64,000 nucleotides of DNA from Herbaspirillum hiltneri N3 (lineage in GTDB: Bacteria; Pseudomonadota; Gammaproteobacteria; Burkholderiales; Burkholderiaceae_D): NCBI RefSeq assembly GCF_001267925.1, contig NZ_CP011409.1, positions 1,426,001-1,490,000 of the forward strand. Direction: 5' to 3'. Shown in pieces: positions 9,639-23,070 of this stretch. Within the stretch, counting starts at the first letter, position 1, and every line of letters starts with the position of its first letter. The notes under the pieces are model-generated. The model was given only the letters and a program-made list of their open reading frames with translations, searched no databases and was not told the origin of the DNA. The position numbers and the translations under genes are program-made.

Positions 9639-10523
9639 TCAGTTCGGTTGCCGCGCCACATCCGCCTCGTTGTCCCCGGCCAGCGTCTGGCGGGTAACCG
9701 GTTGCGCATCGCGCGCCACCGCTTCCGGCGGCTGCACGCGCACAGGCTGGCTGTGGTCGACTGACGACGACAACACATTGAGCGTCGCTTCAGGAGCGGC
9801 ATCCCAGACCGGATCGTCGATGGCTTCAAACACGCGCTTGAGTTGCGCGCCCCAGCTGCGGCGAATCATCTGGAAATACTGGTTGTGCTCATCGATGGTG
9901 ACGAAGCGCGTCACCGCCAGGTCATTGGCGGTGTAGACCATCAGGTCCAGAGGCAGGCCGACCGAGATGTTCGACTTCAGCGTCGAATCCATCGAAATCA
10001 GCGCGCACTTGGCAGCCTCGTCCAGCGAAGTCTGCGGCGTGACGACGCGATCGATGATCGGTTTGCCGTACTTGGCTTCGCCGATCTGGAAATAGGTATT
10101 TTCGTCGTGCGACTCGATGAAGTTGCCTGCCGAGTACATCTGGAACAGGCGGCAACGCTCGCCCTTGATCTGGCCGCCGAAAATGATGCTTACATTGAAG
10201 TCGATGCCGAACTTGGCCAGTTCTTCCGCGTCGCGCTGATGCACTGTACGAATGGCGTCGCCGAGAATCTGCGCGGCTTCGTACATCGAGGTCGCGGTCC
10301 AGATGGTGCGGCCTTCGGCATTGGTCTTCTCGGACACGATCTGCCGGATCGATTGCGAAATGGAAAGATTGCCTGCCGTCATCATCACCATGACGCGTTC
10401 GCCCGGGTTCTCGTAGACATTCATCTTGCGGAATGTGCCGATGTGATCGACGCCCGCATTGGTCCTCGAGTCGGATAAAAAGACCAGGCCTTCGTTCAGG
10501 CGCATGGCAACGCAATAAGTCAT
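9639..10523 (-). CDS. Anbu, proteasome-like (HslV-related) peptidase
   Basis: A 294-aa Ntn-hydrolase of the Anbu family (betaproteobacterial proteasome homologue). It starts MTYCVAM, so removal of Met exposes the nucleophile Thr2; D18 is in LSDSRTNAG and K33 in FRKMN, matching the proteasome Thr/Asp/Lys triad without a propeptide. The MVMMTAGNLSISQSIRQ segment is the usual core. The last ~55 residues, including the PVRVQPPEAVARD segment, are an extra tail. Family knowledge: Anbu sits with alpha-E, ATP-grasp and transglutaminase genes; substrate unknown. It is third after the ATP-grasp and alpha-E genes, separated from alpha-E by 155 bases with a strong hairpin. Confidence 0.93.
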   Translation of the reverse strand: MTYCVAMRLNEGLVFLSDSRTNAGVDHIGTFRKMNVYENPGERVMVMMTAGNLSISQSIRQIVSEKTNAEGRTIWTATSMYEAAQILGDAIRTVHQRDAEELAKFGIDFNVSIIFGGQIKGERCRLFQMYSAGNFIESHDENTYFQIGEAKYGKPIIDRVVTPQTSLDEAAKCALISMDSTLKSNISVGLPLDLMVYTANDLAVTRFVTIDEHNQYFQMIRRSWGAQLKRVFEAIDDPVWDAAPEATLNVLSSSVDHSQPVRVQPPEAVARDAQPVTRQTLAGDNEADVARQPN

Positions 10524-10562
10524 GATGTGAGCTAAAAATGTAAAAGCCGGATTTTACAGGAA

Positions 10563-10591
10563 GCCCCGCCGGCACCGGGTGCGGGCGGGGC
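10563..10591. other. Strong GC-rich hairpin between alpha-E and anbu genes
   Basis: GCCCCGCC and GGCGGGGC pair over 8 bp, with an inner GCAC/GTGC stem and CGG loop. A second smaller inverted repeat (GTAAAA and TTTTAC) lies at 540-557 of the same kilobase, nearer anbu. There is no clear U-tract after the large stem on the minus strand. It may be an attenuator or a transcript-stability element giving anbu an expression level different from the genes before it. Confidence 0.7.
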
Positions 10592-10678
10592 CCAAATGTC
10601 GTGGACCTGACACATTATCGGCAAATTCCAGACAATTCTTAACCGTCAGACTGGCAGATCGATAATTTTTTTTACAAT

Positions 10679-11671
10679 TTATGCTGCCAAAGGCACAAGA
10701 AAATCCTTGCTGATGCGATTGCCGAGCTCAAAGATGCGTTCCAGAAACACCGTCAGATAATCGTGCAGGCCGGCATCGAATACTTCCTCAATGCGGCTGA
10801 ACTTGAGATCGGCGTCCAGCTTACCGGCAAAGCGCTCCGTATCGGCCGAGACATCGTTGCGGACGTGTTTCAGGTTACTCAGCACATGATCCATGCAGGC
10901 CGCCAGCGAGCGCGGCATGTCGGCGCGCAGGATCAGCAATTCAGCAACGCGTTCGGGCGTGATGACGTCGCGATAGACCTTGCGGTAAATCTCGAAGCCC
11001 GACACCGACCGCAGGATCGCGGCCCAGTAATAAAAATCGATCTGGCTGTCCTGGGCCTTGGCGTTCGCGCTCAGCAGGCTTTGCTGCTGGCTTTGGCCGG
11101 GCTTGACGGTTTCCTTGGCGCCGTGGAACTTGACGTCGATGATGCGCGCGGTGTTGTCGGCGCGTTCGAGGAAGGTGCCGAGGCGGATGAAATGGAAGGC
11201 TTCATCCTTGAGCATGGTGCCGATGGTGACGCCGCGCGACAGATGCGAGCGGTGCTTGACCCATTCGAAGAAATCGCTCGGGTTCTGCTCCAGCGCATTG
11301 GTCTGCAGGTAACCCTGCATCTTGATCCAGGTGGCGTTCTGGATTTCCCAGGCTTCGGTGGTCAGCGCGCCGCGCACTGCGCGGGCGTTCTCGCGCGCCT
11401 GCTTGAGGCAAGAGGCGATCGACGACGAATTGCTGGGGTCGCGCACCATGAAGTCGATGACATCCTTTTGCGTCAGCGCATCGTACTTCTGGTTATAGCC
11501 ATACTGCAGCTCGGAAATGCCGAGCAGGGCGCGCCAGCCTTGTTCGGCGTCGTCGGTGGATTGCGGCAGCAGGGCGGTCTGCACATGCACATCGAGCATG
11601 CGGGCGGTATTTTCGGCGCGTTCGGTATAGCGCGCCATCCAGAACAGGTGGTCAGCGGTGCGGCTCAACAT
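10679..11671 (-). CDS. Alpha-E domain protein (DUF403)
   Basis: A 330-aa all-helical protein of the alpha-E family. It opens MLSRTADHLFWMARYTERAEN, the family's signature segment, and continues with a charged helical pattern (ARENARAVRGALTTEAWE; FIRLGTFLERADNTARI). Family knowledge: alpha-E proteins always travel with circularly permuted ATP-grasp genes and probably act with them; no biochemical activity is established. It begins 3 bases after the ATP-grasp stop. A homologous domain is fused to the ATP-grasp at 19574-22132. Confidence 0.92.
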   Translation of the reverse strand: MLSRTADHLFWMARYTERAENTARMLDVHVQTALLPQSTDDAEQGWRALLGISELQYGYNQKYDALTQKDVIDFMVRDPSNSSSIASCLKQARENARAVRGALTTEAWEIQNATWIKMQGYLQTNALEQNPSDFFEWVKHRSHLSRGVTIGTMLKDEAFHFIRLGTFLERADNTARIIDVKFHGAKETVKPGQSQQQSLLSANAKAQDSQIDFYYWAAILRSVSGFEIYRKVYRDVITPERVAELLILRADMPRSLAACMDHVLSNLKHVRNDVSADTERFAGKLDADLKFSRIEEVFDAGLHDYLTVFLERIFELGNRISKDFLVPLAA

Positions 11672-11674
11672 GAT

Positions 11675-13090
11675 TTATTTCTCCAGAATCCAGGTGTCCT
11701 TGGTGCCGCCGCCTTGCGACGAATTCACCACCAGCGAGCCTTCCTTGAGCGCCACGCGCGTGAGGCCGCCCTTGACCATCGACACGGTCTTGCCGGACAA
11801 CACGAAGGGACGCAAGTCGAGATGGCGCGGCGCGATGCCGGCATCCACATAGGTCGGGCAGACGGACAGCGCCAGCGTCGGCTGTGCGATATAGCCGTCG
11901 GGTTTGGCGATCACGCGCTGGCGGAAATCCTCGATCTCCTGTTTGGTCGACGCCGGGCCGACCAGCATGCCGTAGCCGCCGGCGCCGTGGACTTCCTTGA
12001 CCACCAGCTTGTCGAGATTGGCCAGCGTGTAGGAGAGATCATCCTTCTTGCGGCACTGGTAGGTCGGGACGTTGTTGAGGATGGGTTCTTCGGACAGGTA
12101 GAACTTGATCATGTCCGGCACATAGGGATAGATCGACTTGTCGTCGGCGACGCCGGTGCCGATGGCGTTGGTCAGCGTGACCTTGCCGGCGCGATAGGCC
12201 GACAGCAGGCCCGGCACACCCAGCGAGGAATCGGCGCGGAACGCCAGCGGATCGAGATAGTCGTCGTCGATGCGGCGATAGATCACATCGACGCGTTTCG
12301 GTCCGCGCGTGGTGCGCATGTAGACGGTGTTGTCCTTGACGAACAAGTCCTGTCCTTCGACCAGCTCGACGCCCATTTGCTGCGCCAGGAAAGCGTGTTC
12401 GAAATACGCGGAGTTGTACATGCCCGGCGTCATCACGACGACGGTAGGATCGACCACGCCGACGGGCGCGACCGAACGCAGGTTGTCGAGCAGCATGTCG
12501 GGATAGTGATCGACCGGCGCGATCTTGTTGCGCGTGAACAGCTCGGGGAACAGCCGCATCATCATCTTGCGGTTTTCCAGCATGTAGGACACGCCGGACG
12601 GTACGCGCAGGTTATCTTCGAGCACATAGAACTCGCCCTCGCCGGCGCGCACGATGTCGACGCCGGCGATATGGGCGTAGATGTCGGAGGCGACGTCGAC
12701 GTCCTGCATCTCGGGACGGTATTGCGCGTTCTTCAGAATCTGCTCGGCCGGAATGACGCCGGCCTTGATGATTTTCTGGCTGTGGTAAATGTCGTGGATG
12801 AACATGTTGAGCGCTTTGACGCGCTGCACCAGTCCCGCTTCCAGCTTGGCCCACTCGGCGGCATGAATGATGCGCGGAATGATGTCGAAGGGGATCAGCC
12901 GCTCCGTGCCTGCATCGTTGCCGTAGACCGCGAAGGTGATGCCGACGCGGCGGAAAATCAGGTCGGACTCTGCGCGTTTCCGGACGATGGTCTCAGCGGT
13001 TTGGGAAGACAGCCACGCCGCGAATTCATCGTAGTGCTTACGAACTGAAACGGCGCCATCGGAGTACATCTCGTCGAAAAAATTTGCCAT
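11675..13090 (-). CDS. Circularly permuted ATP-grasp protein (DUF404/DUF407)
   Basis: A 471-aa member of the circularly permuted ATP-grasp family, predicted to ligate an amine or amino acid to a carboxylate using ATP. Visible segments are RIIHAAEWAKLEAGLVQRVKAL, the LEDNLRVPSGVSYMLENR block (about residues 158-175), YRRIDDDYLDPLAFR, the TNAIGTGVADDKSI block and GGLTRVAL near the end. The same blocks appear in the first half of the 852-aa fusion in the plus-strand cluster, so the two are paralogues. It is the promoter-proximal gene of the minus unit ATP-grasp, alpha-E, Anbu. Confidence 0.92.
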   Translation of the reverse strand: MANFFDEMYSDGAVSVRKHYDEFAAWLSSQTAETIVRKRAESDLIFRRVGITFAVYGNDAGTERLIPFDIIPRIIHAAEWAKLEAGLVQRVKALNMFIHDIYHSQKIIKAGVIPAEQILKNAQYRPEMQDVDVASDIYAHIAGVDIVRAGEGEFYVLEDNLRVPSGVSYMLENRKMMMRLFPELFTRNKIAPVDHYPDMLLDNLRSVAPVGVVDPTVVVMTPGMYNSAYFEHAFLAQQMGVELVEGQDLFVKDNTVYMRTTRGPKRVDVIYRRIDDDYLDPLAFRADSSLGVPGLLSAYRAGKVTLTNAIGTGVADDKSIYPYVPDMIKFYLSEEPILNNVPTYQCRKKDDLSYTLANLDKLVVKEVHGAGGYGMLVGPASTKQEIEDFRQRVIAKPDGYIAQPTLALSVCPTYVDAGIAPRHLDLRPFVLSGKTVSMVKGGLTRVALKEGSLVVNSSQGGGTKDTWILEK

Positions 13091-13339
13091 AAATTTGCTT
13101 CGTTTTCTGGTGCTGATGCGGGGGGATTTTTAGCTTGAGACTAAGCGGATATTATTTGTTCATTGGTAGTTGCCGACATCCTCATCGCTGGTGGGGGTAG
13201 GCACAGACTATCACGCCATTTCCGCTTTTGGACAGCGAAAATTGCACGGCGTCCCGCGCCCGATTCACGCCGGCGATGGCGGATCCGGTTTGATGTCCGG
13301 CTTGATGAGGCGGCTTGAAAATGATTTGCTCCTTCTGTT

Positions 13340-13780
13340 TCAGACCCACGGCGTCGGCGCAGGAACGGCCGCCGGTGCGGGCATGTCGATGGTGGTGAAA
13401 TCGGCCGGGCTGACGATTTCAAGATACTCCATGTCCGGTGAATAATCGAACAGGAAATGCACGATGCCCGGTCGCTGGTGCACGCAATCGCCGGTCTTCA
13501 CCAGCGTTACCTGGTCCTCGTACATGAAGCGCGCCCAGCCCTTGAGCATGATGACGATATGAAAATTCGCCTCATGCCGGTGCCAGCCGGTGCCGGCCTC
13601 CGGCGCCATGTTGGCCTTGACCAGTTGGGCCACGACCTGGCCGCCGGTGGCCGCGGCGATGCCGAGGTCGCGGTACAGGAAGAAGTCGCGCAGGCCGCCG
13701 GATTCATACGGAGTATCACCCTCGCTGACATGAGAGAACACGTTCAGGTCGGTCGGTTTCGTTGCGGCTATCGTATTCAT
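13340..13780 (-). CDS. Cupin domain protein
   Basis: A 146-aa protein with one cupin barrel. The metal-binding motif 1 is visible as GWHRHEANFHIVIMLKGWARF (His and Glu ligands) and motif 2 as the HQRPGIVHFLFDYSPD segment. It starts at ATG 13778-13780 after AGAAAGGA; a longer in-frame start lies upstream without a better ribosome site. Cupins of this kind bind small molecules or act as dioxygenases or isomerases; no substrate can be deduced. It is oriented like the ATP-grasp unit but separated from it by 249 bases. Confidence 0.85.
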   Translation of the reverse strand: MNTIAATKPTDLNVFSHVSEGDTPYESGGLRDFFLYRDLGIAAATGGQVVAQLVKANMAPEAGTGWHRHEANFHIVIMLKGWARFMYEDQVTLVKTGDCVHQRPGIVHFLFDYSPDMEYLEIVSPADFTTIDMPAPAAVPAPTPWV

Positions 13781-13854
13781 GACACTGATCCTTTCTGCGG
13801 CGGGCCGCATGCGATTGGCTGATGAAATACCCGTGCGTTGAAATTCCTGTGCGT

Positions 13855-13875
13855 CTGCTGCTGCTGCTGCTGCTG
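13855..13875. repeat. CTG trinucleotide repeat, 7 copies
   Basis: Seven perfect CTG units in the short gap between the GST stop and the cupin start, in non-coding DNA. Such runs are prone to slippage. On the minus strand it reads CAG and lies in the leader of the cupin gene. Confidence 0.9.
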
Positions 13876-13891
13876 CCTCTATCGTTTCCTC

Positions 13892-14545
13892 CTAGAACTC
13901 GACATCCAGTTCGTCAATATCTTCCGGCTCCTTCTGCGCGGCGGCGATCCATTCCTTCATCTCCGGCATCGCCATGATGCGCTTGCTGTAGGCGGCGCAA
14001 ATCGGTTCCAGCTTGACGTCGTAGGTGATGAAGCGCGTGATCACCGGCGCATACATGGCGTCGGCCATGGTGCGCTCGCCGAACAGATACGGGCCGCCGT
14101 AGGTAGCCAGGCATTCCTTCCAGATGGTGGTGATGCGCTGGATGTCGGCTTGCGCGCGCGACCAGATTTTGAAATTGGGGAAGTGCGCTTTCAGGTTCAT
14201 CGGCAGCGCCGAACGCAGCGCACTGAAGCCGGAGTGCATCTCGCCGCAGATCGCGCGGCAATGCGCGCGCGCCGCCTGGTCGGCCGGCAGCAGCTTGGCG
14301 GCCGGACGGACTTCGTTGAGGTATTCGGCGATCGCCAGCGTGTCCCAGACAAAGATATCGCCATGCTTGAGGCTGGGCACCAGGATCGAGGAGGACAGCA
14401 GCAGGATTTCGGCGCGCGCGTCGGGATCGTCCGGCGGCACGATATCTTCCTGAAACGGCAACCCGGCAAATTTGGCGAGCAGCCAGCCACGCATTGACCA
14501 GGAAGAGTAGTTCTTGCTGGTGATGCGCAAAGTCGTTTTAGGCAT
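13892..14545 (-). CDS. Glutathione S-transferase family protein
   Basis: A 217-aa cytosolic GST. The thioredoxin-like N-terminal domain begins TLRITSKNYSSWSMRGW, where the Ser in SSWS is the likely glutathione-activating residue, followed by the LVPSLKHGD cis-Pro region and the DTLAIAEYL segment. A helical C-terminal domain follows from about residue 85, with LFGERTMADAMYAPV near residue 150. AAGGAC lies 6 bases before the ATG. Substrate unknown. Confidence 0.9.
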   Translation of the reverse strand: MPKTTLRITSKNYSSWSMRGWLLAKFAGLPFQEDIVPPDDPDARAEILLLSSSILVPSLKHGDIFVWDTLAIAEYLNEVRPAAKLLPADQAARAHCRAICGEMHSGFSALRSALPMNLKAHFPNFKIWSRAQADIQRITTIWKECLATYGGPYLFGERTMADAMYAPVITRFITYDVKLEPICAAYSKRIMAMPEMKEWIAAAQKEPEDIDELDVEF

Positions 14546-14799
14546 GTCAGTCCTTTATGTGTGTGTACTTCTGACTTTGGCGCGTCAATTGTTGACGCGC
14601 GGTTTGTATGGACGCGTCCGTACTTCCCGAACCGCATCAGCGGCGCATTGATGGTGCTCATGTGTTGCCTGTCCGTTACTTGCAAAGGGCGTGCCAGCAA
14701 TGCTCCGGATGCGGCGCCGGGTTCATACGCGCCCGAAGGTCAATGGCATGCATATTGCATCGAGGGAGGGACTGGTGAAACCGAGGGAGTGGGTTGTAT

Positions 14800-16026
14800 A
14801 TGACAAATATTTACCAGGCATACCAGCAATACGCCGACGCCACTGATCCGCTGCGTGCCTCGGCCCGGGCGGCGGTCCCGTTCCTGGGGCACACTTGGCC
14901 GGGTGTGCCGTCCAGCTCCGTGCTGCGCAAAATGGCCGCGGCCTATGAAGTTTTTGCACGCACCCAATTGACGCATGTGCGTCCTCCTTTCGACATCGAC
15001 AGCGTCCAGGACAGCGGGCGCACCGTTGCGGTGCGTGAAGAGGTGATCGACCGCACGCCGTTTTGCACCTTGTTGCGTTTCCGCAAGGAAACGGCGGCCG
15101 AGCAACCTGCGGTGCTGCTGGTGGCGCCGATGTCGGGCCACTTTGCAACGCTGCTGCGCGGCACCGTCAAAACGCTGCTGCGCGACCACGATGTCTATAT
15201 CACCGACTGGCACAATGCGCGCGACATTGCGCTGGAGCACGGCCGCTTCGGCCTGGACGAATACGTCGGTCACCTGATTCGTTTCCTGCAAGTCATCGGT
15301 CCCGGCGCGCATCTCGTCGCGGTGTGCCAACCCACCGTGGCGGCCCTCACTGCCGCCGCCGTGATGGCCGAGGGCGACGACCCGGCCCAGCCGCGCACCA
15401 TGACGCTGATGGCCGGCCCGCTCGATACGCGCGTCAATCCGACCACCGTCAACGATCTTGCCAAGAGCAAGCCGATCGAATGGTTCGAGAAGCATCTGGT
15501 CAGCACGGTCCCGGCGCGCCATCCCGGCGGCGGCCGCAAGGTCTATCCGGGTTTCATGCAACTGGCGGCGTTCATGAACATGAACCTCAATCGCCATGTC
15601 GATGCCTTCCGCAACCTGTACACCTATCTGATCGAAGGCGAGCACGACAAGGCCGAAGCGATCAAGGTGTTCTACGAAGAATACTTCGCCATGTCGGACC
15701 TGCCGGCGGAGTTTTACCTGGAAACGGTGCGGGTGGTGTTCCAGGAGCACGCCTTGCCGCTGGGCCTGCTGCAATTCCAGGGGCGTCCGGTCAATCTGAA
15801 AGCGATCCGGCGCACCGCCCTGTTCACCGTGGAGGGCGAGAAGGATGACATCTGCGCCGTCGGCCAGACCGTCGCTGCACAGGATATGTGCAGCAGCATC
15901 CGCCCCTACATGCGCCTGCACCATGTGCAGACGGCGGTGGGCCACTATGGCGTCTTCAACGGGCGCCGGTGGGAAAATGAAATCTATCCACGCCTGAGGG
16001 ATTTCATTAATATGCACCACAGGTGA
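14800..16026 (+). CDS. phaZ: Intracellular polyhydroxybutyrate depolymerase PhaZ
   Basis: Hydrolyses stored PHB granules inside the cell. The 408-aa protein has the intracellular depolymerase fold, with the lipase-box equivalent VAVCQPTV carrying a Cys nucleophile (C176) rather than Ser, as in the Ralstonia i-PHB depolymerases. The FTVEGEKDDICAVGQT block supplies the Asp and QTAVGHYGVFNG the His. I start at ATG 14800, about ten bases after GGGAG; a TTG two codons upstream is less likely. It sits between the two ATP-grasp loci. No phasin or synthase gene is adjacent. Confidence 0.93.
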   Translation: MTNIYQAYQQYADATDPLRASARAAVPFLGHTWPGVPSSSVLRKMAAAYEVFARTQLTHVRPPFDIDSVQDSGRTVAVREEVIDRTPFCTLLRFRKETAAEQPAVLLVAPMSGHFATLLRGTVKTLLRDHDVYITDWHNARDIALEHGRFGLDEYVGHLIRFLQVIGPGAHLVAVCQPTVAALTAAAVMAEGDDPAQPRTMTLMAGPLDTRVNPTTVNDLAKSKPIEWFEKHLVSTVPARHPGGGRKVYPGFMQLAAFMNMNLNRHVDAFRNLYTYLIEGEHDKAEAIKVFYEEYFAMSDLPAEFYLETVRVVFQEHALPLGLLQFQGRPVNLKAIRRTALFTVEGEKDDICAVGQTVAAQDMCSSIRPYMRLHHVQTAVGHYGVFNGRRWENEIYPRLRDFINMHHR

Positions 16027-16122
16027 ACGTTTCCCGGCCTGGTGCAACCCGACCAACAATAGTCCGTCACAGCAGTCCATCAGCAGTCCATCGGCTCAAC
16101 TTGTTTGTTGTAAAGGATCTTC

Positions 16123-19100
16123 ATGTCAATTTATGTGGCGCTGAACCATGTCACGTCTTACCGTTATGACCGTGCTATCAATCTGGGTCCCCAAATCGTA
16201 CGCCTGCGTCCGGCCCCGCATTGCCGTACGCGGATATTGAGCTATTCGCTGCGCATTCTTCCCGAGCCGCATTTCATCAACTGGCAGCAGGATCCGCAAG
16301 CCAACTACATGGCGCGGCTGGTGTTTCCCGAGAAGACCGAAGAATTCCGCATCGAAGTCGATCTGGTGGCCGAAATGTCGGTCATCAATCCCTTCGATTT
16401 CTTTCTTGAGCCGTATGCCGAGCAGATCCCGTTCGAGTACGCCAAGGAGCTGCAAAACGAGTTGTCGCCGTATCGCAAGACCTTGCCGCTGACGCCGCGC
16501 TTCCAGAAATTCCTCGACGGCATCTCGCGCGAGAAAATGAACAGCGCCGACTTTCTGGTCGCGCTGAACCAGAAGCTGGCCGACGCCGTCGCCTATACCA
16601 TCCGCATGGAGCCGGGCGTGCAGACGCCGGAAGAGACGCTCGAAATCGGTTCCGGTTCCTGCCGCGATTCGTCCTGGTTGCTGGTGCAGCTGCTGCGCCA
16701 CCTCGGCCTGGCTGCGCGTTTCGTGTCCGGTTACCTGATCCAGCTCACCGCCGACCAGAAATCGCTCGACGGCCCATCCGGACCGGAAGCCGATTTCACC
16801 GACCTGCACGCCTGGTGCGAAGTCTATCTGCCGGGCGCCGGCTGGGTCGGCCTCGATCCGACCTCGGGCCTGTTCGCCGGCGAAGGCCATATCCCGCTGT
16901 CCTGCACGCCCGAGCCGTCTTCGGCGGCGCCGGTCAGCGGCATGGTCGATCCGTGCGAAGTGGAGTTCGGACATTCGATGAGCGTGTCGCGTTTTTGGGA
17001 AGCGCCGCGCGTCACCAAGCCGTACACCGAAGCGCAATGGAGCGAGATCGAAGAACTCGGTCACGCCATCGACGATGACCTCGACGCACTTGACGTGCGC
17101 CTGACCATGGGCGGCGAACCGACCTTCGTATCGCTCGATCATCCCGACGAGCCTGAGTGGAGCACCGCCGCACTGGGCGCCACCAAGAAGCCGCTGGCGG
17201 CCGACCTGTACCACCGCATGCGCGAAAAATACGCCGTGCAAGGCCTGCCGCATTTCGGCCAGGGCAAGTGGTATCCGGGGGAACAGTTGCCGCGCTGGGC
17301 GCTCAACTGCTACTGGCGTCGCGACGGCCAGCCGATCTGGCACAACCGCGATCTGATCGGCGACGAAGCCACGCCGAACGTCAAGGACGACGACATCCCG
17401 GAACGCTTCCTCAAGGGCGTGGCTGCGCGCCTGTCGCTCGACGGCAAGCACATCTTCCCGGCCTATGAAGACGTGTTCTACTACATGTGGCGCGAGCGCC
17501 GCCTGCCGGGCAACGTCGACCCGTTCGATTCCAAACTCGACGACAAGCAGGAGCGTGCGCGCCTCATGCGGGTCTTTTCGCAAGGTCTCGACAAGGTCGC
17601 CGGCCACGTGCTGCCGGTGGCGCGCCGTCCCGACGATCTCGGCTGGCAAAGCGGCGACTGGTTCCTGCGCAGCGAGCGTTGCTACCTGTATCCCGGCGAT
17701 TCACCGCTCGGTTATCGCCTGCCGCTCGATTCGCAGCCTTGGGTCAAGTCGACCGACTATCCCTACGTGCATGCGGCCGACCCGACGCAGCAGTTCGCTC
17801 CGCTGTCGCCGGCGACCGATGTCCGCCTCAAGTTCGTCCAGCGTCCTGCGTTCAGCGGCGCGACCTCGGTGGCGTTCCAGCAGGATCGCTACGGCACGCG
17901 TCGCGGCAGCCCGGTTACCGGCAACGGCAAGGGTATGCCTGCGGCAACAGGCGGCGCCCCGGTGCTGTTCCAATCGGCGGACTGGATCACGCGCACCGCG
18001 TTGTGTGCGGAAGTGCGCAATGGCGTGCTGTACCTGTTCATGCCGCCGCTGGCGCAGCTTGAGAATTATCTCGAGCTGGTCGCCGCCATCGAAGCCACCG
18101 CCGAAGAACTCGGCCAGCCGGTCCTGATGGAAGGCTACGAGCCGCCCAACGATCCGCGCGTGCGCAAGTTCAGCGTCACGCCCGATCCCGGCGTGATCGA
18201 AGTCAACATCCAGCCGGCCTACAACTGGAGCGAGCTGGTCGACCAGACCACGCATTTGTATGAAGCCGGCCGCGAGTCGCGCCTGACCACCGAGAAGTTC
18301 ATGCTCGACGGCCATCATTCCGGCACCGGCGGCGGCAACCATATGGTGATGGGCGGCGCCACGACCGCCGATTCGCCGTTCCTGCGCCGGCCCGATCTGC
18401 TGCGCAGCCTGATCAGCTACTGGCATAACCATCCGTCGCTGTCCTATCTGTTCTCGGGCATGTTCATCGGTCCGACCTCGCAGGCGCCGCGCATCGATGA
18501 AGCCCGCAACGATTCCACGGTGGAAATCGAACTGGCCTTCGCCGAGATGGAAAAGCAGCTCGAAAAAGGCGGCTGCGCGCCGTGGCTGGTCGATCGTCTG
18601 CTGCGCAACCTGCTGATCGACGTTACCGGCAATACGCACCGCGCCGAGTTCTGCATCGACAAGCTGTATTCGCCCGACAGCGCCACCGGCCGCCTCGGCC
18701 TGCTGGAGCTGCGCGCCTTCGAAATGCCGCCGCACGCCCGCATGAGCCTGACCCAGCAGTTGCTGCTGCGTGCGCTGGTGGCGCGGTTCTGGAAGACGCC
18801 CTACAAGCCGCAACGCCTGGTGCGCTGGGGTACCGAGTTGCATGATCGTTTCCTGTTGCCGCATTTCATCTGGCAGGATTTCAACGACATCATGGACGAC
18901 ATGCAGGAAGCCGGCTATCCGATGCAGGCCGAATGGTTCGCGCCGCATTTCGAATTCCGCTTCCCCAAGATCGGCGACTTTGCCGTCAAGGGCATGGAGC
19001 TGGAATTGCGCACCGCGCTGGAACCGTGGCACGTGCTGGGCGAAGAGGGCAGCTCGACCGGCACGGCGCGCTACGTCGATTCATCGGTGGAGCGGCTGGA

Positions 19101-19500
19101 GGTCAAGGTCCGCGGCATGGCCAAGGACCGTTACGTGCTGACGTGCAACGGCGTCGCGGTGCCGCTGCAACCGACCGGCGTGGTCGGCGAGTTCGTCACC
19201 GGCGTGCGCTACCGGGCCTGGCAGCCGCCGTCGGCGCTGCATCCGACCATCGGCATCGATTCGCCGCTGACCTTCGATCTGGTCGATACCTGGAACGGCC
19301 GCAGCCTGGGCGGATGCCAGTATCACGTGGTGCATCCGGGCGGACGCAGCTACGAGACCTTCCCGGTCAACGCCTTCGAAGCCGAGAGCCGCCGGCTGGC
19401 GCGTTATTTCCGTCTCAACCACACGCCGGGAAAGATGGACGTGAGCGCTGCGCGACCATCAATCGAGTTCCCATTTACGTTAGACTTGCGACATTACTAA
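16123..19500 (+). CDS. Large transglutaminase-like / DUF2126 protein
   Basis: A 1125-aa protein. The N-terminus (MSIYVALNHVTSYRYDRAI) is the bacterial transglutaminase N-domain. The transglutaminase-like core follows with catalytic C180 in GSCRDSSW, H229 in DLHAWCEVYL and D245 in LDPTSGL. From about residue 320 to the end it is the large DUF2126 region, including LTMGGEPTFVS and HHSGTGGGNHMVMGG. Family knowledge: transglutaminase-fold proteins of this set are probably peptidases or amide-bond-exchanging enzymes paired with ATP-grasp ligases. It starts the plus-strand unit; the ATP-grasp/alpha-E fusion follows 73 bases later. Confidence 0.92.
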   Translation: MSIYVALNHVTSYRYDRAINLGPQIVRLRPAPHCRTRILSYSLRILPEPHFINWQQDPQANYMARLVFPEKTEEFRIEVDLVAEMSVINPFDFFLEPYAEQIPFEYAKELQNELSPYRKTLPLTPRFQKFLDGISREKMNSADFLVALNQKLADAVAYTIRMEPGVQTPEETLEIGSGSCRDSSWLLVQLLRHLGLAARFVSGYLIQLTADQKSLDGPSGPEADFTDLHAWCEVYLPGAGWVGLDPTSGLFAGEGHIPLSCTPEPSSAAPVSGMVDPCEVEFGHSMSVSRFWEAPRVTKPYTEAQWSEIEELGHAIDDDLDALDVRLTMGGEPTFVSLDHPDEPEWSTAALGATKKPLAADLYHRMREKYAVQGLPHFGQGKWYPGEQLPRWALNCYWRRDGQPIWHNRDLIGDEATPNVKDDDIPERFLKGVAARLSLDGKHIFPAYEDVFYYMWRERRLPGNVDPFDSKLDDKQERARLMRVFSQGLDKVAGHVLPVARRPDDLGWQSGDWFLRSERCYLYPGDSPLGYRLPLDSQPWVKSTDYPYVHAADPTQQFAPLSPATDVRLKFVQRPAFSGATSVAFQQDRYGTRRGSPVTGNGKGMPAATGGAPVLFQSADWITRTALCAEVRNGVLYLFMPPLAQLENYLELVAAIEATAEELGQPVLMEGYEPPNDPRVRKFSVTPDPGVIEVNIQPAYNWSELVDQTTHLYEAGRESRLTTEKFMLDGHHSGTGGGNHMVMGGATTADSPFLRRPDLLRSLISYWHNHPSLSYLFSGMFIGPTSQAPRIDEARNDSTVEIELAFAEMEKQLEKGGCAPWLVDRLLRNLLIDVTGNTHRAEFCIDKLYSPDSATGRLGLLELRAFEMPPHARMSLTQQLLLRALVARFWKTPYKPQRLVRWGTELHDRFLLPHFIWQDFNDIMDDMQEAGYPMQAEWFAPHFEFRFPKIGDFAVKGMELELRTALEPWHVLGEEGSSTGTARYVDSSVERLEVKVRGMAKDRYVLTCNGVAVPLQPTGVVGEFVTGVRYRAWQPPSALHPTIGIDSPLTFDLVDTWNGRSLGGCQYHVVHPGGRSYETFPVNAFEAESRRLARYFRLNHTPGKMDVSAARPSIEFPFTLDLRHY

Positions 19501-19573
19501 CGCACGCAGTTCTGCCGTTGCCGCAGGTCATCGCCAGCCAGGATGACTGCGGCAACGGCGCCCTCGAAAATCT

Positions 19574-22132
19574 ATGTATCAGCGCCTCCTGCAAAGCTAT
19601 ACCGCCGACGCCGATCGTTACGACGAGATGCTGGCTGCCGACGGTCGCTTGCGGCCGCACTGGCGCACGCTGATCGATCAGCTGGAGAATCTCTCGCCCG
19701 AGATGATGCGCCGCCGCGCCGACGAAGTGCGCGACGCCATCGCCTCCGATGGCATGACCTACAACGTCTATGCCGATCCGCAAGGCGTCAGCCGTCCGTG
19801 GGAACTGGACCTGCTGCCGCAGATCGTCGCCGCCGACGAATGGCAGAAGCTCTCGGCCGCCGTCGCGCAACGCGCGCGCCTGCTCAATGCCGTGCTTGGC
19901 GACCTGTATGGCGAACAACACTTGCTGGCCGAAGGCCTGTTGCCGCCGGCGCTGGTGTTCGGCCAGCACGGTTATTTGTGGCCGTGCCGCGACGTCCGTC
20001 CCCCGGGTGGCGTGCACCTGCATCTGTACGCCATCGACCTGGCGCGCTCGGCCGACGGCAACTGGTGGGTGATCGCCGATCGCACGCAAGGTCCTTCGGG
20101 CAGCGGCTACGCGTTGCAGAATCGCCAGATCATGACGCGCGCCCTGCCCGAGGCGATGCGCGACATGCACGTGCAACCGCTGCTCAATTATTTCCACGCG
20201 CTGCATCAGTGCCTGACGCGGCTCGCACCGAAGAGCAGCGAGCCGCCGATGGTGGTGCTGCTGACGCCGGGGCCGTACAACGAAACCTATTCCGAACACG
20301 CCTTCCTGGCGCATACGCTGGGCTTCCCGCTGGTCGAAGGGGTCGACCTCACGGTGCGCGGCGACATGGTCTACCTGAAGACGCTGACCGGCCTGCGCCG
20401 CGTGCATGCGATCATGCGCCGCCTCGATGACGATTATTGCGACCCGCTTGAATTGCGCTCGGATTCGGCGCTCGGCATTCCGGGCCTGACGCAGGCTGCG
20501 CGCTCCGGCAACGTGCTGATCGCCAACGCGCTTGGCAGCGGCGTGCTGGAATCGACTGCGCTGCACGGCTTCTTGCCGGGGATCAGCCAACGCCTGCTCG
20601 GCGAAGAGCTGGCGCTGCCGGCGGTCGCGTCGTGGTGGTGCGGCGAAAAGCCGGCGCTGGAATACACGCTGGCGCATCTGGAAGAACTGGTGATCATGCC
20701 GGCCTTCCCGTCGATGCGCATGCAACCGGTGTTCGGCCATACGCTCAATGCCACTACGCGGCGGCGCCTGATCGAAAGCCTGCAATTGCAGCCGCATGCT
20801 TACGTCGCGCAGGAGTGGGTGCGCTTGTCGCAGGCGCCGGTGCTGTCGCGCAGCGGCGAGTACCACCTGACCAATCGCACCGTCAGCTTGCGCGTGTTCG
20901 CCGCCGCCGACGGCGAGGGCGGCTATCACGTGATGCCGGGCGGTCTCACGCGCGTGGCGCCGCGCCAGCGCCGCGACGTCGTCTCGATGCAGCAGGGCGG
21001 CACCAGCAAGGACGTCTGGGTGCTGAGCGAAAAGACCGATGCCGATGACGCCGCCGGCATCGCCACCGCCATGGCCGCGGCAGAGACCAGCGTCGCGGTC
21101 GGCCCCGGTGCGATGACCGATCCGGTATCGCGCACTTCGGAACTGATCCGCACCACCGTCGACGTGTCTTCGCATGCCGGTGAAAATTTGTTCTGGATGG
21201 GCCGCTATGCCGAGCGCACCGACAATCTTGCGCGCCTGTTGCGCACGACCTTGCAATGCACGATCGAACCGCAATCCGACAATCGCGCGATCCTGCGCAG
21301 CGTCAGCGAGATTTGTATCCGTCTCGGCATCCTGATGCCGAAATCGGAGCAGGCGCATCCCACCATCACCGCCTTGCAACAAAGCCTGCAAGCGGCGATT
21401 GCGGATCCCAGCGCCACGGTCAGCATCTCCACGCACCTGCGCCACCTGCATCATTCCGGTTACCAGGTGCGCGAGCATCTGTCGCTGGACAACTGGCACG
21501 CACTCAATCGCATGCCGCCATTGGTGCAGGAGAAGATCAACTCGCCGACCGCCATGCTGCATGTCCTCAACAACGTCATCCAGGGTTGCTCGGGCCTGGC
21601 CGGCCATGCGCTGGACGACATGACGCGCGATGAAGGCTGGCAGTTCCTGATGATCGGCCGCCACATCGAACGCATGGTGCACCTGGCGGCCTTGTTCGAC
21701 CAGTTCATGCAGCTCGAACCGGCGCGCCAGAATGCAGCGCTGACCTGGCTGCTGGAATCGTCGAGCAGCATCGTCACCTATCGCGTGCGGTACCGGCGCA
21801 CGCCGGAGTGGCTGCAGGTGCTGCACCTGCTGGTGTTCGACGTCAGCAATCCGCACAGCATCGCCTACCAGTTCCGCATGCTGCAGCACTACCTGACCGA
21901 CATCGCGCAGCAGCTCGGCATCCTCAGCATGAATATCCCGGCGCACCTGAGCGAGCAGCTGAACGGTTTTGCGTTGCCCGATTTCGCGCGCGATGCGGCG
22001 ACATCGGAAGCCGCCGGCGAGCGGCTCATCCAACTCATGCGCGAAGCGCGCAGCGCCGGCTTCTCATTGACCGATGATTTGTCGCGGCATTTCTTCACGC
22101 CGCTCAGCGCACCGGTCAGCCAAGGGGTATGA
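19574..22132 (+). CDS. Fused circularly permuted ATP-grasp / alpha-E protein
   Basis: An 852-aa fusion. Residues 1-~490 are a circularly permuted ATP-grasp: DRTQGPSGSGYALQNRQIM, RRLDDDYCDPLELRSD, ANALGSGVLEST and GGLTRVAPRQRRDVV correspond block for block to the separate ATP-grasp at 11675-13090. From about residue 533 (SHAGENLFWMGRYAERTDN) the protein is an alpha-E domain, matching the separate gene at 10679-11671. A ~40-residue Ala-rich linker joins them. The stop overlaps the next start (ATGA), coupling it to the 313-aa transglutaminase. The fusion supports direct physical partnership of the two domains. Confidence 0.93.
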   Translation: MYQRLLQSYTADADRYDEMLAADGRLRPHWRTLIDQLENLSPEMMRRRADEVRDAIASDGMTYNVYADPQGVSRPWELDLLPQIVAADEWQKLSAAVAQRARLLNAVLGDLYGEQHLLAEGLLPPALVFGQHGYLWPCRDVRPPGGVHLHLYAIDLARSADGNWWVIADRTQGPSGSGYALQNRQIMTRALPEAMRDMHVQPLLNYFHALHQCLTRLAPKSSEPPMVVLLTPGPYNETYSEHAFLAHTLGFPLVEGVDLTVRGDMVYLKTLTGLRRVHAIMRRLDDDYCDPLELRSDSALGIPGLTQAARSGNVLIANALGSGVLESTALHGFLPGISQRLLGEELALPAVASWWCGEKPALEYTLAHLEELVIMPAFPSMRMQPVFGHTLNATTRRRLIESLQLQPHAYVAQEWVRLSQAPVLSRSGEYHLTNRTVSLRVFAAADGEGGYHVMPGGLTRVAPRQRRDVVSMQQGGTSKDVWVLSEKTDADDAAGIATAMAAAETSVAVGPGAMTDPVSRTSELIRTTVDVSSHAGENLFWMGRYAERTDNLARLLRTTLQCTIEPQSDNRAILRSVSEICIRLGILMPKSEQAHPTITALQQSLQAAIADPSATVSISTHLRHLHHSGYQVREHLSLDNWHALNRMPPLVQEKINSPTAMLHVLNNVIQGCSGLAGHALDDMTRDEGWQFLMIGRHIERMVHLAALFDQFMQLEPARQNAALTWLLESSSSIVTYRVRYRRTPEWLQVLHLLVFDVSNPHSIAYQFRMLQHYLTDIAQQLGILSMNIPAHLSEQLNGFALPDFARDAATSEAAGERLIQLMREARSAGFSLTDDLSRHFFTPLSAPVSQGV

Positions 22133-23070
22133 CGATGACCGACGCCACCTATCACATCGTCCACGAGACCAACTACCAGTATGCGGCGCCGGTGCGGCTG
22201 TCGCATCAGGTGCTGCGCCTGACGCCGCGCTCGTTGCCGTGGCAGACCTGCACCTCGCATTTCATCAACATCCTGCCGGGACCGACCAATCTGATCAACC
22301 TGTACACCGACAGCTTCGGCAACGCGCTGCAGTCATTCTCGCTGGACCAGGACCACGCCAGCCTCGATGTCTACGCGGAGTCGTGGGTGGAGATATCGTC
22401 GCGCCTGTTGCCGACCGCCACGCCGGCCTGGGAGCGAGTCGCCGAGACGCTGTCGTATCACGCCGGCCGCAGCTTGTCGGCCGACAGGCTGGAAGCGTCG
22501 CGCTTCCTGTTCGAGTCTTCGCACGTCAGGATCAAGCGTGAATTCGCGCGCTATGCCGCCGAATGCTTCACGCCCGGCTTGTCCCTGCTGCAGGGTGTCG
22601 AGGCGCTGATGAAACGCATTTTCAATGAATTCACTTTCGATCCCGAGGCGACCACGGTGTCGACGCCGGTGACCGATGTGTTCGTCAGCAAGCGCGGCGT
22701 ATGCCAGGATTACGCGCACTTCATGCTGTCCTGCCTGCGCTCGCTGGGTTTGTCGGCGCGCTACGTCAGCGGCTATCTGCTGACGCAGCCGCCGCCGGGC
22801 CAGCCGCGCCTGATCGGCGCCGACGCGTCGCATGCCTGGGTATCGGTGTATTGCCCGGGGCAGGACGGCGAACCGGATTGCTGGATTGACGCCGATCCGA
22901 CCAACGGCATCTTCCCCGACACCAGCCACATCACGCTGGGATGGGGTCGCGACTTCCTCGACATCTCGCCCCTGCGCGGCGTGCTGATCGGCGGCGGCCA
23001 GCAAACCATGCAGGTGGCCGTAACGGTCATGCCGTCGCAGGAAGTGCCGGGACTGCCGTTCGCCCGTTGA
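22129..23070 (+). CDS. Transglutaminase family protein
   Basis: A 313-aa two-domain protein. The N-domain (TYHIVHETNYQYAAPVRLSHQ) is the bacterial transglutaminase N-terminal type. The catalytic domain has C192 in KRGVCQDYAHF, H235 in ASHAWVSVY and the Asp in IDADPTNG (about residue 256). The family was long annotated as cysteine protease-like. It overlaps the fusion gene by 4 bases and closes the plus-strand cluster. A second in-frame ATG lies 6 bases downstream of the one used. Confidence 0.93.
   Translation: MTMTDATYHIVHETNYQYAAPVRLSHQVLRLTPRSLPWQTCTSHFINILPGPTNLINLYTDSFGNALQSFSLDQDHASLDVYAESWVEISSRLLPTATPAWERVAETLSYHAGRSLSADRLEASRFLFESSHVRIKREFARYAAECFTPGLSLLQGVEALMKRIFNEFTFDPEATTVSTPVTDVFVSKRGVCQDYAHFMLSCLRSLGLSARYVSGYLLTQPPPGQPRLIGADASHAWVSVYCPGQDGEPDCWIDADPTNGIFPDTSHITLGWGRDFLDISPLRGVLIGGGQQTMQVAVTVMPSQEVPGLPFAR

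Follow-up and report, generated by a model that had tools for sequence, protein, structure and literature searches.

Gene neighbourhoods that combine a circularly permuted ATP-grasp ligase, an alpha-E protein, a transglutaminase, and the proteasome-like hydrolase Anbu (ancestral beta subunit) were predicted from genome context to serve peptide synthesis or tagging (Iyer et al. 2009, as cited in PMC5666114, PMC6376114, and PMC3597751), and their function has been debated since 2009. We examined a locus of this family in Herbaspirillum hiltneri N3, in a 64,000-base stretch of DNA (the window; bases 1426001-1490000 of the single 4.97 Mb contig), where all five families of the ATP-grasp/alpha-E/transglutaminase/Anbu system are found in two gene arms that lie back to back and span 13.4 kb. 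An earlier reading of the DNA (hereafter, the sequence-only reading) had taken the locus for its best candidate for an undescribed system; it belongs instead to a family with a published prediction and partial experiments. We propose, with confidence evenly balanced between yes and no, that the two arms constitute one nitrogen-stress-inducible divergon of the published amide-ligation family.

With the originally predicted context the locus shares its circularly permuted ATP-grasp, alpha-E, transglutaminase, and Anbu families; it differs in forming one divergent unit with sigma54 boxes, in carrying a fusion whose ATP-grasp part is devoid of catalytic motifs, and in missing the transglutaminase of the Anbu operon. 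That context reportedly included DUF2126, a glutamine synthetase (GS)-like ligase, as well. In Yersinia bercovieri and others, a four-gene Anbu operon is described that encodes ATP-grasp, alpha-E, transglutaminase, and Anbu (PMC6376114). The order ATP-grasp, alpha-E, Anbu and the Thr1/Asp17/Lys32(33) triad are common to both, whereas the locus here has no transglutaminase between alpha-E and Anbu and has a DUF2126 arm adjoining. Another relative, the Burkholderia cenocepacia cluster I35_5080-83, has DUF404/407, DUF403, transglutaminase, and large transglutaminase genes in common with the window; neither Anbu nor a polyhydroxyalkanoate (PHA) depolymerase is among the four genes that the account of this cluster names, and its NtrC dependence was measured, while here such dependence is suggested by promoter boxes (PMC5491218). 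Finally, PDB 3n6x, a "putative glutathionylspermidine synthase", is similar to the standalone ATP-grasp and keeps its LEDN and GGYGM motifs, in contrast to the fusion, a distant paralogue with neither. The family is therefore known; what is added here is the divergon, an apparent pseudo-ligase, a module logic, and a likely transglutaminase replacement, by which a vague peptide-tagging prediction becomes a few definite tests.

Organization of the Divergent Locus

The sequence-only reading placed the two loci face to face, but the arms are divergent, departing from a gap at positions 14546-14799 of the window. On the minus strand, in order of transcription, lie the genes for a glutathione S-transferase (GST)-like protein (14545-13892), a cupin-domain protein (13810-13340), the standalone ATP-grasp (13090-11675), alpha-E (11671-10679, 3 bases from the ATP-grasp gene), and Anbu (10523-9639). 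The plus strand carries the PHA depolymerase (14800-16026), a transglutaminase-DUF2126 protein (16123-19500), an ATP-grasp/alpha-E fusion (19574-22132), and a stand-alone transglutaminase (22129-23070). Pfam and PDB matches bear out the identities and strands previously given to the six genes of the system. The two adjoining loci of the sequence-only reading are likewise present, with three genes between them: the cupin and GST-like genes on the minus strand and the PHA depolymerase gene on the plus strand. Like the window, 32 of 33 genus relatives have the arms side by side, the sole exception (G028) being a contig fragment from a genome that is 63% complete.

Sigma54 Boxes and Nitrogen Response of Homologues

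The gap between the arms contains two putative sigma54 -24/-12 boxes. When the window was scanned with the consensus TGGCACN5TTGCW, the only exact match was TGGCACGCCCTTTGCA at 14681-14696 on the minus strand, pointing to the minus arm; TGGCATGCATATTGCA, at 14744-14759 on the plus strand and pointing to the plus arm, has 1 mismatch. The genome as a whole holds 15 exact matches, versus 1 for the reversed pattern. Proteins downstream of 9 of the 14 other exact sites were scanned: NtrC and the allantoinase PuuE scored over the cut-off, a NarK-family transporter just under it, an HpxO-like protein well under it, and SsuA-family and methylisocitrate-lyase-like proteins both under it, while the downstream proteins at three sites (L078, L086, and L073) gave no family match.

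Both boxes are conserved. Across 34 loci (the window, 32 genus relatives, and G229 from another genus of the same family; a 35th locus, L216, has no complete gap), the minus box is exact in every case, and the plus box shows at most two mismatches in all 34 and at most one in 31. When 25 of these gaps were aligned, no 18-column stretches were better conserved than the two boxes, which have 14 and 13 columns at or above 90% identity, the plus box ranking second; the next in rank, with 8 such columns, lies where the PHA depolymerase gene begins. In three genus members (L047, L051, and L068), the GST, cupin, and PHA depolymerase genes are absent, and the box pair is flanked immediately by ATP-grasp on one side and DUF2126 on the other. 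Collimonas silvisoli shares the gene arrangement of the window and has a box pair as well. More widely, a box with at most one mismatch was found in sense orientation upstream of ATP-grasp in 45 of 80 loci and in antisense in 3, where 1.0 would be expected (span, 250 bases upstream of the gene start, with 30 bases into the gene allowed); these are the best 80 of 593 confirmed loci, found with an ATP-grasp alignment, and several are close Pseudomonas relatives. A second set, in which 35 of 38 loci were counted (two being of fusion type only and one without a gene start), gave 15 sense boxes and no antisense box for about 0.4 expected; the two sets may overlap in species. These patterns suggest the use of sigma54, and probably of NtrC, in this genus.

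Published data on homologues are partly in keeping with such control. For example, the B. cenocepacia cluster is listed among the common targets of NtrC and sigma54, its four genes changing by log2 -8.2, -9.4, -9.4, and -6.0 in an ntrC mutant (PMC5491218). In wild-type Pseudomonas putida, PP_2686-2688 are reported to rise 11- to 15-fold under nitrogen limitation, a response that the authors assign to NtrB/NtrC (PMC7801951). Nitrate as compared with ammonium gave log2 values of +4.4 for PP_2685, the Anbu gene, and +4.0 for PP_2688, and four promoters examined as nitrogen sensors included those of both genes (PMC8050072). In marine metagenomes, these domains are described as associated with urea-metabolism domains (PMC3597751). 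There is thus good evidence for nitrogen induction of the homologues; as for sigma54 dependence, one species provides support, and one data set from a second species contradicts it.

An Intact ATP-Grasp and an Apparently Dead Paralogue

The standalone ATP-grasp (PF14403, 7.3e-169; PDB 3n6x, 3.4e-233) aligns to 3n6x over residues 5-470 and has LEDN and GAGGYGM intact. LEDN and GGYG are found in 61 of 61 standalone proteins (60 with GGYGM and one with GGYGI; the row for L118 is a fragment). The Gly-rich loop presumably binds phosphate and the Glu and Asn of LEDN metal, as we take it from work on ATP-grasp enzymes and glutathionylspermidine synthetase (GspS).

The ATP-grasp half of the fusion (19574-21043; PF14403, 3.3e-153) is recognizably ATP-grasp in sequence, as the sequence-only reading had it, and matches 3n6x at 6.5e-87, yet the catalytic signatures are absent: IADR and PSMRMQP stand at the places of LEDN and GAGGYGM. 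Neither LEDN nor GGYG was found anywhere in 51 fusions, 25 from the window's genus and 26 from elsewhere in the phylum, which are part of those existing. One of them (L095) retains GGxG, and 12 retain the Lys of the LVVK strand; the loop sequence differs widely among them. The domain is not decaying, as six comparisons within the genus gave a ratio of nonsynonymous to synonymous substitutions (dN/dS) of 0.02-0.10, which falls among the values of the other genes. The alpha-E half (21161-22132; PF04168, 1.4e-63) keeps its ER motifs and aligns with standalone alpha-E, E169-R170 being present throughout the 27 rows, of which 6 are fusions (the slice from fusion L060 starts past the first ER motif). 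The fusion thus looks to be a conserved pseudo-ATP-grasp, apparently catalytically dead. It is unlikely, in our estimation, that its ATP-grasp part is instead alive with changed chemistry in a remodelled nucleotide site. Strong purifying selection and the residual Lys and GGxG would suit such an enzyme, but the wide variability of the loop and the absence of LEDN from all 51 proteins would not.

Anbu, Alpha-E, and Transglutaminases

Anbu, an N-terminal nucleophile (Ntn) hydrolase, scores barely over the cut-off for PF00227 (24.4 versus 22.4 bits; 2.6e-5), the other core Pfam matches being far above theirs; its identity is settled by PDB structures of Anbu, which match at 1.2e-88 (5loy). T2, D18, and K33, earlier said to be intact, are indeed so, and no variation occurs at these positions in the 14 Anbu proteins aligned. 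Two genus members, L047 and L068, have kept both ligase arms with no Anbu in the locus, which was the region searched. In a Nitrosomonadales locus (L181), two Anbu matches flank ATP-grasp/alpha-E, with DUF2126 adjoining. In the 13.9 kb region, sigma-70-like matches number five, close to the 4.1 expected by chance, and every one lies within or at the edge of the gap between Anbu and alpha-E (10524-10678, 155 bases). A promoter of its own may serve Anbu, by analogy with P. putida, in which that of PP_2685 was tested separately.

The alpha-E protein (PF04168, 5.4e-99) is all helical in a confident predicted model (predicted local distance difference test, 88; predicted template modelling score, 0.87), and the protein had no significant match among solved structures. 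One half aligns to the other (hhalign probability 98.8, E 1.4e-16), and each has an ER motif (ERAEN from residue 17 and ERADN from residue 169); on this evidence, alpha-E is an internal duplication.

Two transglutaminase domains are held by the plus arm. One (residues 1 to about 275) precedes DUF2126 (residues 276-1125; PF09899, E 0), which has the GS/gamma-glutamyl ligase fold and in which many acidic, His, and Arg positions are invariant over 18 aligned rows. The other is the last protein of the arm (PF01841, 9.6e-19), with Cys-His-Asp intact; this triad is the same in all 13 domains aligned, which represent three gene types. Many Burkholderiales, as well as Erwinia, Serratia, and Paraburkholderia loci, have a further, dedicated transglutaminase between alpha-E and Anbu. 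Searches for it in the window's genome and in 33 genus relatives found none, and of 61 genomes five gave full-strength matches (at least 186 bits); "every core gene", as the sequence-only reading put it, thus applies to the families, all of which are present, and not to this gene. Because G229 and Collimonas retain a copy within the same arrangement, loss in Herbaspirillum is the simplest reading. Among 64 loci (16 of 80 having been dropped for short flanks), the dedicated transglutaminase is present in 3 of 17 with a linked DUF2126 and in 37 of 47 without (p 1.5e-5). Since the DUF2126 protein carries its own transglutaminase domain, it has likely replaced the dedicated one, and this is the best evidence for a function common to both arms.

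Co-Occurrence Across the Phylum

The family is widespread. Among 239 genomes sampled from the phylum, alpha-E was found in 129, DUF2126 in 70, and Anbu in 82; the tallies count related genomes, the p-values carry no phylogeny correction, and Anbu was scored with an alignment built from this order (E at most 1e-20), which remote Anbu types may escape. All 70 DUF2126 genomes have alpha-E, as do 81 of the 82 Anbu genomes, the single exception being G154. Independence of the two loci, which would speak against the sequence-only reading, is half borne out. Overall, Anbu and DUF2126 are correlated (odds ratio 4.4, p 1e-6), but within the 129 alpha-E genomes they are not (both in 41, DUF2126 only in 29, Anbu only in 40, and neither in 19; odds ratio 0.67, p 0.36), so that the overall correlation arises only because both need the alpha-E core. 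ATP-grasp/alpha-E looks like a core to which DUF2126 and Anbu are independent add-ons. It follows from this independence that Anbu is not an obligate processor of the product of the DUF2126 arm. Anbu as an obligate partner of DUF2126 was rejected, as 29 of the 70 DUF2126 genomes have no Anbu match.

DUF2126 is present in 63 of 71 genomes with two or more alpha-E copies, compared with 7 of the 58 single-copy genomes, the pattern to be expected of a fusion that is part of the DUF2126 arm. Four loci of the same order (L059, L062, L064, and L065) have ATP-grasp, alpha-E, DUF2126, and Anbu in one run without the fusion. Within the genus, the adjoining arms, the conserved box pair, and the constant company of DUF2126 and alpha-E support the earlier idea of one system, and suggest that the two arms are one genetic, co-regulated unit there.

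Proposed Mechanism and Alternatives

In the proposed divergon, two back-to-back sigma54 promoters would switch on both arms, the activator most likely being NtrC under nitrogen limitation. In the minus arm, the standalone ATP-grasp would, by the chemistry of its family, make the acyl phosphate of a carboxylate and join an amine to it, with alpha-E as its usual partner; Anbu, as an optional module, would hydrolyse the product. The working ligase of the plus arm would be the GS-fold DUF2126 protein, with its own papain-like transglutaminase domain; the fusion would act as a conserved dead paralogue and not as a third ligase, perhaps as a scaffold or substrate presenter, and the last transglutaminase would trim or transfer the amide. 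The plus arm of Herbaspirillum appears to make good the transglutaminase lost from its minus arm. A likely role would be the making or remaking of a gamma-glutamyl or peptide amide, through which nitrogen is moved or recycled in starvation. The findings predict a fusion without ligase activity, DUF2126 as the likely second ligase, and Anbu as a removable module, and they indicate the conditions to examine: nitrogen limitation, with both arms together. It is tempting to go further, to a Gram-negative protein-tagging cycle of nitrogen starvation, in which ATP-grasp/alpha-E and DUF2126 attach a small gamma-linked tag, the fusion is a substrate receptor joining the two ligases, and removal of the tag, or degradation of its carrier, falls to the transglutaminases and, as an optional member, Anbu. 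This is a long shot; if true, pupylation would have a counterpart with a pseudo-ligase at its centre.

A number of observations weigh against the divergon proposal. As to control, 35 of the 80 ATP-grasp loci have no sigma54 box, and DUF2126 genes outside the family show no sigma54 enrichment (1 of 11 sense and 1 of 11 antisense). No NtrC site stands out clearly: palindromes of that kind occur in 10 of 25 loci, in 7 of them at an offset inside the PHA depolymerase (PhaZ) coding region, and the remaining three are the three loci without PhaZ. Because the boxes of the window precede GST and PhaZ, transcription must read through to reach the ligases, and the cupin and ATP-grasp genes have between them a weak hairpin resembling a terminator (minus strand, 13259-13244); hairpin matches are below chance overall, and this one is possibly an attenuator. 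The P. putida data set that contradicts sigma54 dependence has PP_2686-2688 up 14- to 20-fold in the rpoN mutant too, with urtA-D likewise induced, and PP_2685 changed only 1.12-fold in the wild type under nitrogen limitation (PMC7801951); since PP_2686-2688 and urtA-D rise equally without rpoN, sigma54 dependence is disfavoured in that species. As to function, the published tests, in the accounts drawn on here, found Anbu without peptidase activity on three standard proteasome substrates and no stable complex among the operon proteins, and Anbu authors consider that it fits protein degradation, a peptide-synthesis role being less likely (PMC5666114). Finally, Anbu and DUF2126 are independent given the core, and the functions of the ATP-grasp motifs are carried over from general knowledge of ATP-grasp enzymes and GspS.

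The independence of Anbu and DUF2126 also lends itself to a possible, if doubtful, alternative: two separate systems, an Anbu operon and a DUF2126 operon, that are now neighbours with a common nitrogen regulator and different products. The two genus members that have both ligase arms and no Anbu in the locus would agree with this, as would the distant copies of other genomes, such as G276, with alpha-E and Anbu near 4.73 Mb and the fusion and DUF2126 near 2.44 Mb. Separate systems fit poorly, however, with the four single runs that unite DUF2126 with ATP-grasp/alpha-E and Anbu without the fusion, and with the usual absence of a dedicated transglutaminase from the minus arm when DUF2126 is linked. 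Nitrogen-starvation protein turnover by Anbu and its operon, in which the ligases only tag proteins or supply ammonia, is quite improbable. Structural papers on Anbu discuss it, with the argument that inhibitor binding and the architecture of the ring suit degradation (PMC5666114), and both the proteasome likeness of Anbu, seen in its match to 5loy, and the nitrogen induction of the homologues speak for it; yet 48 of the 129 alpha-E genomes have the core with no Anbu match, and the operon is described as having no AAA+ partner (PMC5666114). Hardly credible is the model of the sequence-only reading, in which the plus arm builds an amide-linked peptide and the minus arm, with Anbu, degrades it. 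While the intact Anbu residues and the near-constant company of Anbu and alpha-E accord with it, the intact ATP-grasp sits in the supposedly degradative arm, the fusion of the "synthetic" arm is the one without catalytic motifs, Anbu and DUF2126 are independent given the core, and the reported assay of Anbu on proteasome substrates was negative.

Promoter-Proximal Genes

The GST-like gene is the first of the minus arm (13892-14545; PF13409, 6.5e-11) and occurs in 31 of 35 loci; the cupin gene (13340-13810; PF07883, 2.3e-8), a promoter-proximal passenger of the Anbu arm, occurs in 29 of 35. First in the plus arm, and present in 31 of 35 loci, is the PHA (polyhydroxybutyrate, PHB) depolymerase homologue PhaZ (PF06850, 3.1e-89). 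G229, Collimonas, and most loci of the genus have all three in promoter-proximal position; the three genus members named above are without them. PHA usually accumulates under nitrogen stress, and a PHA depolymerase within a likely nitrogen-stress transcript is odd.
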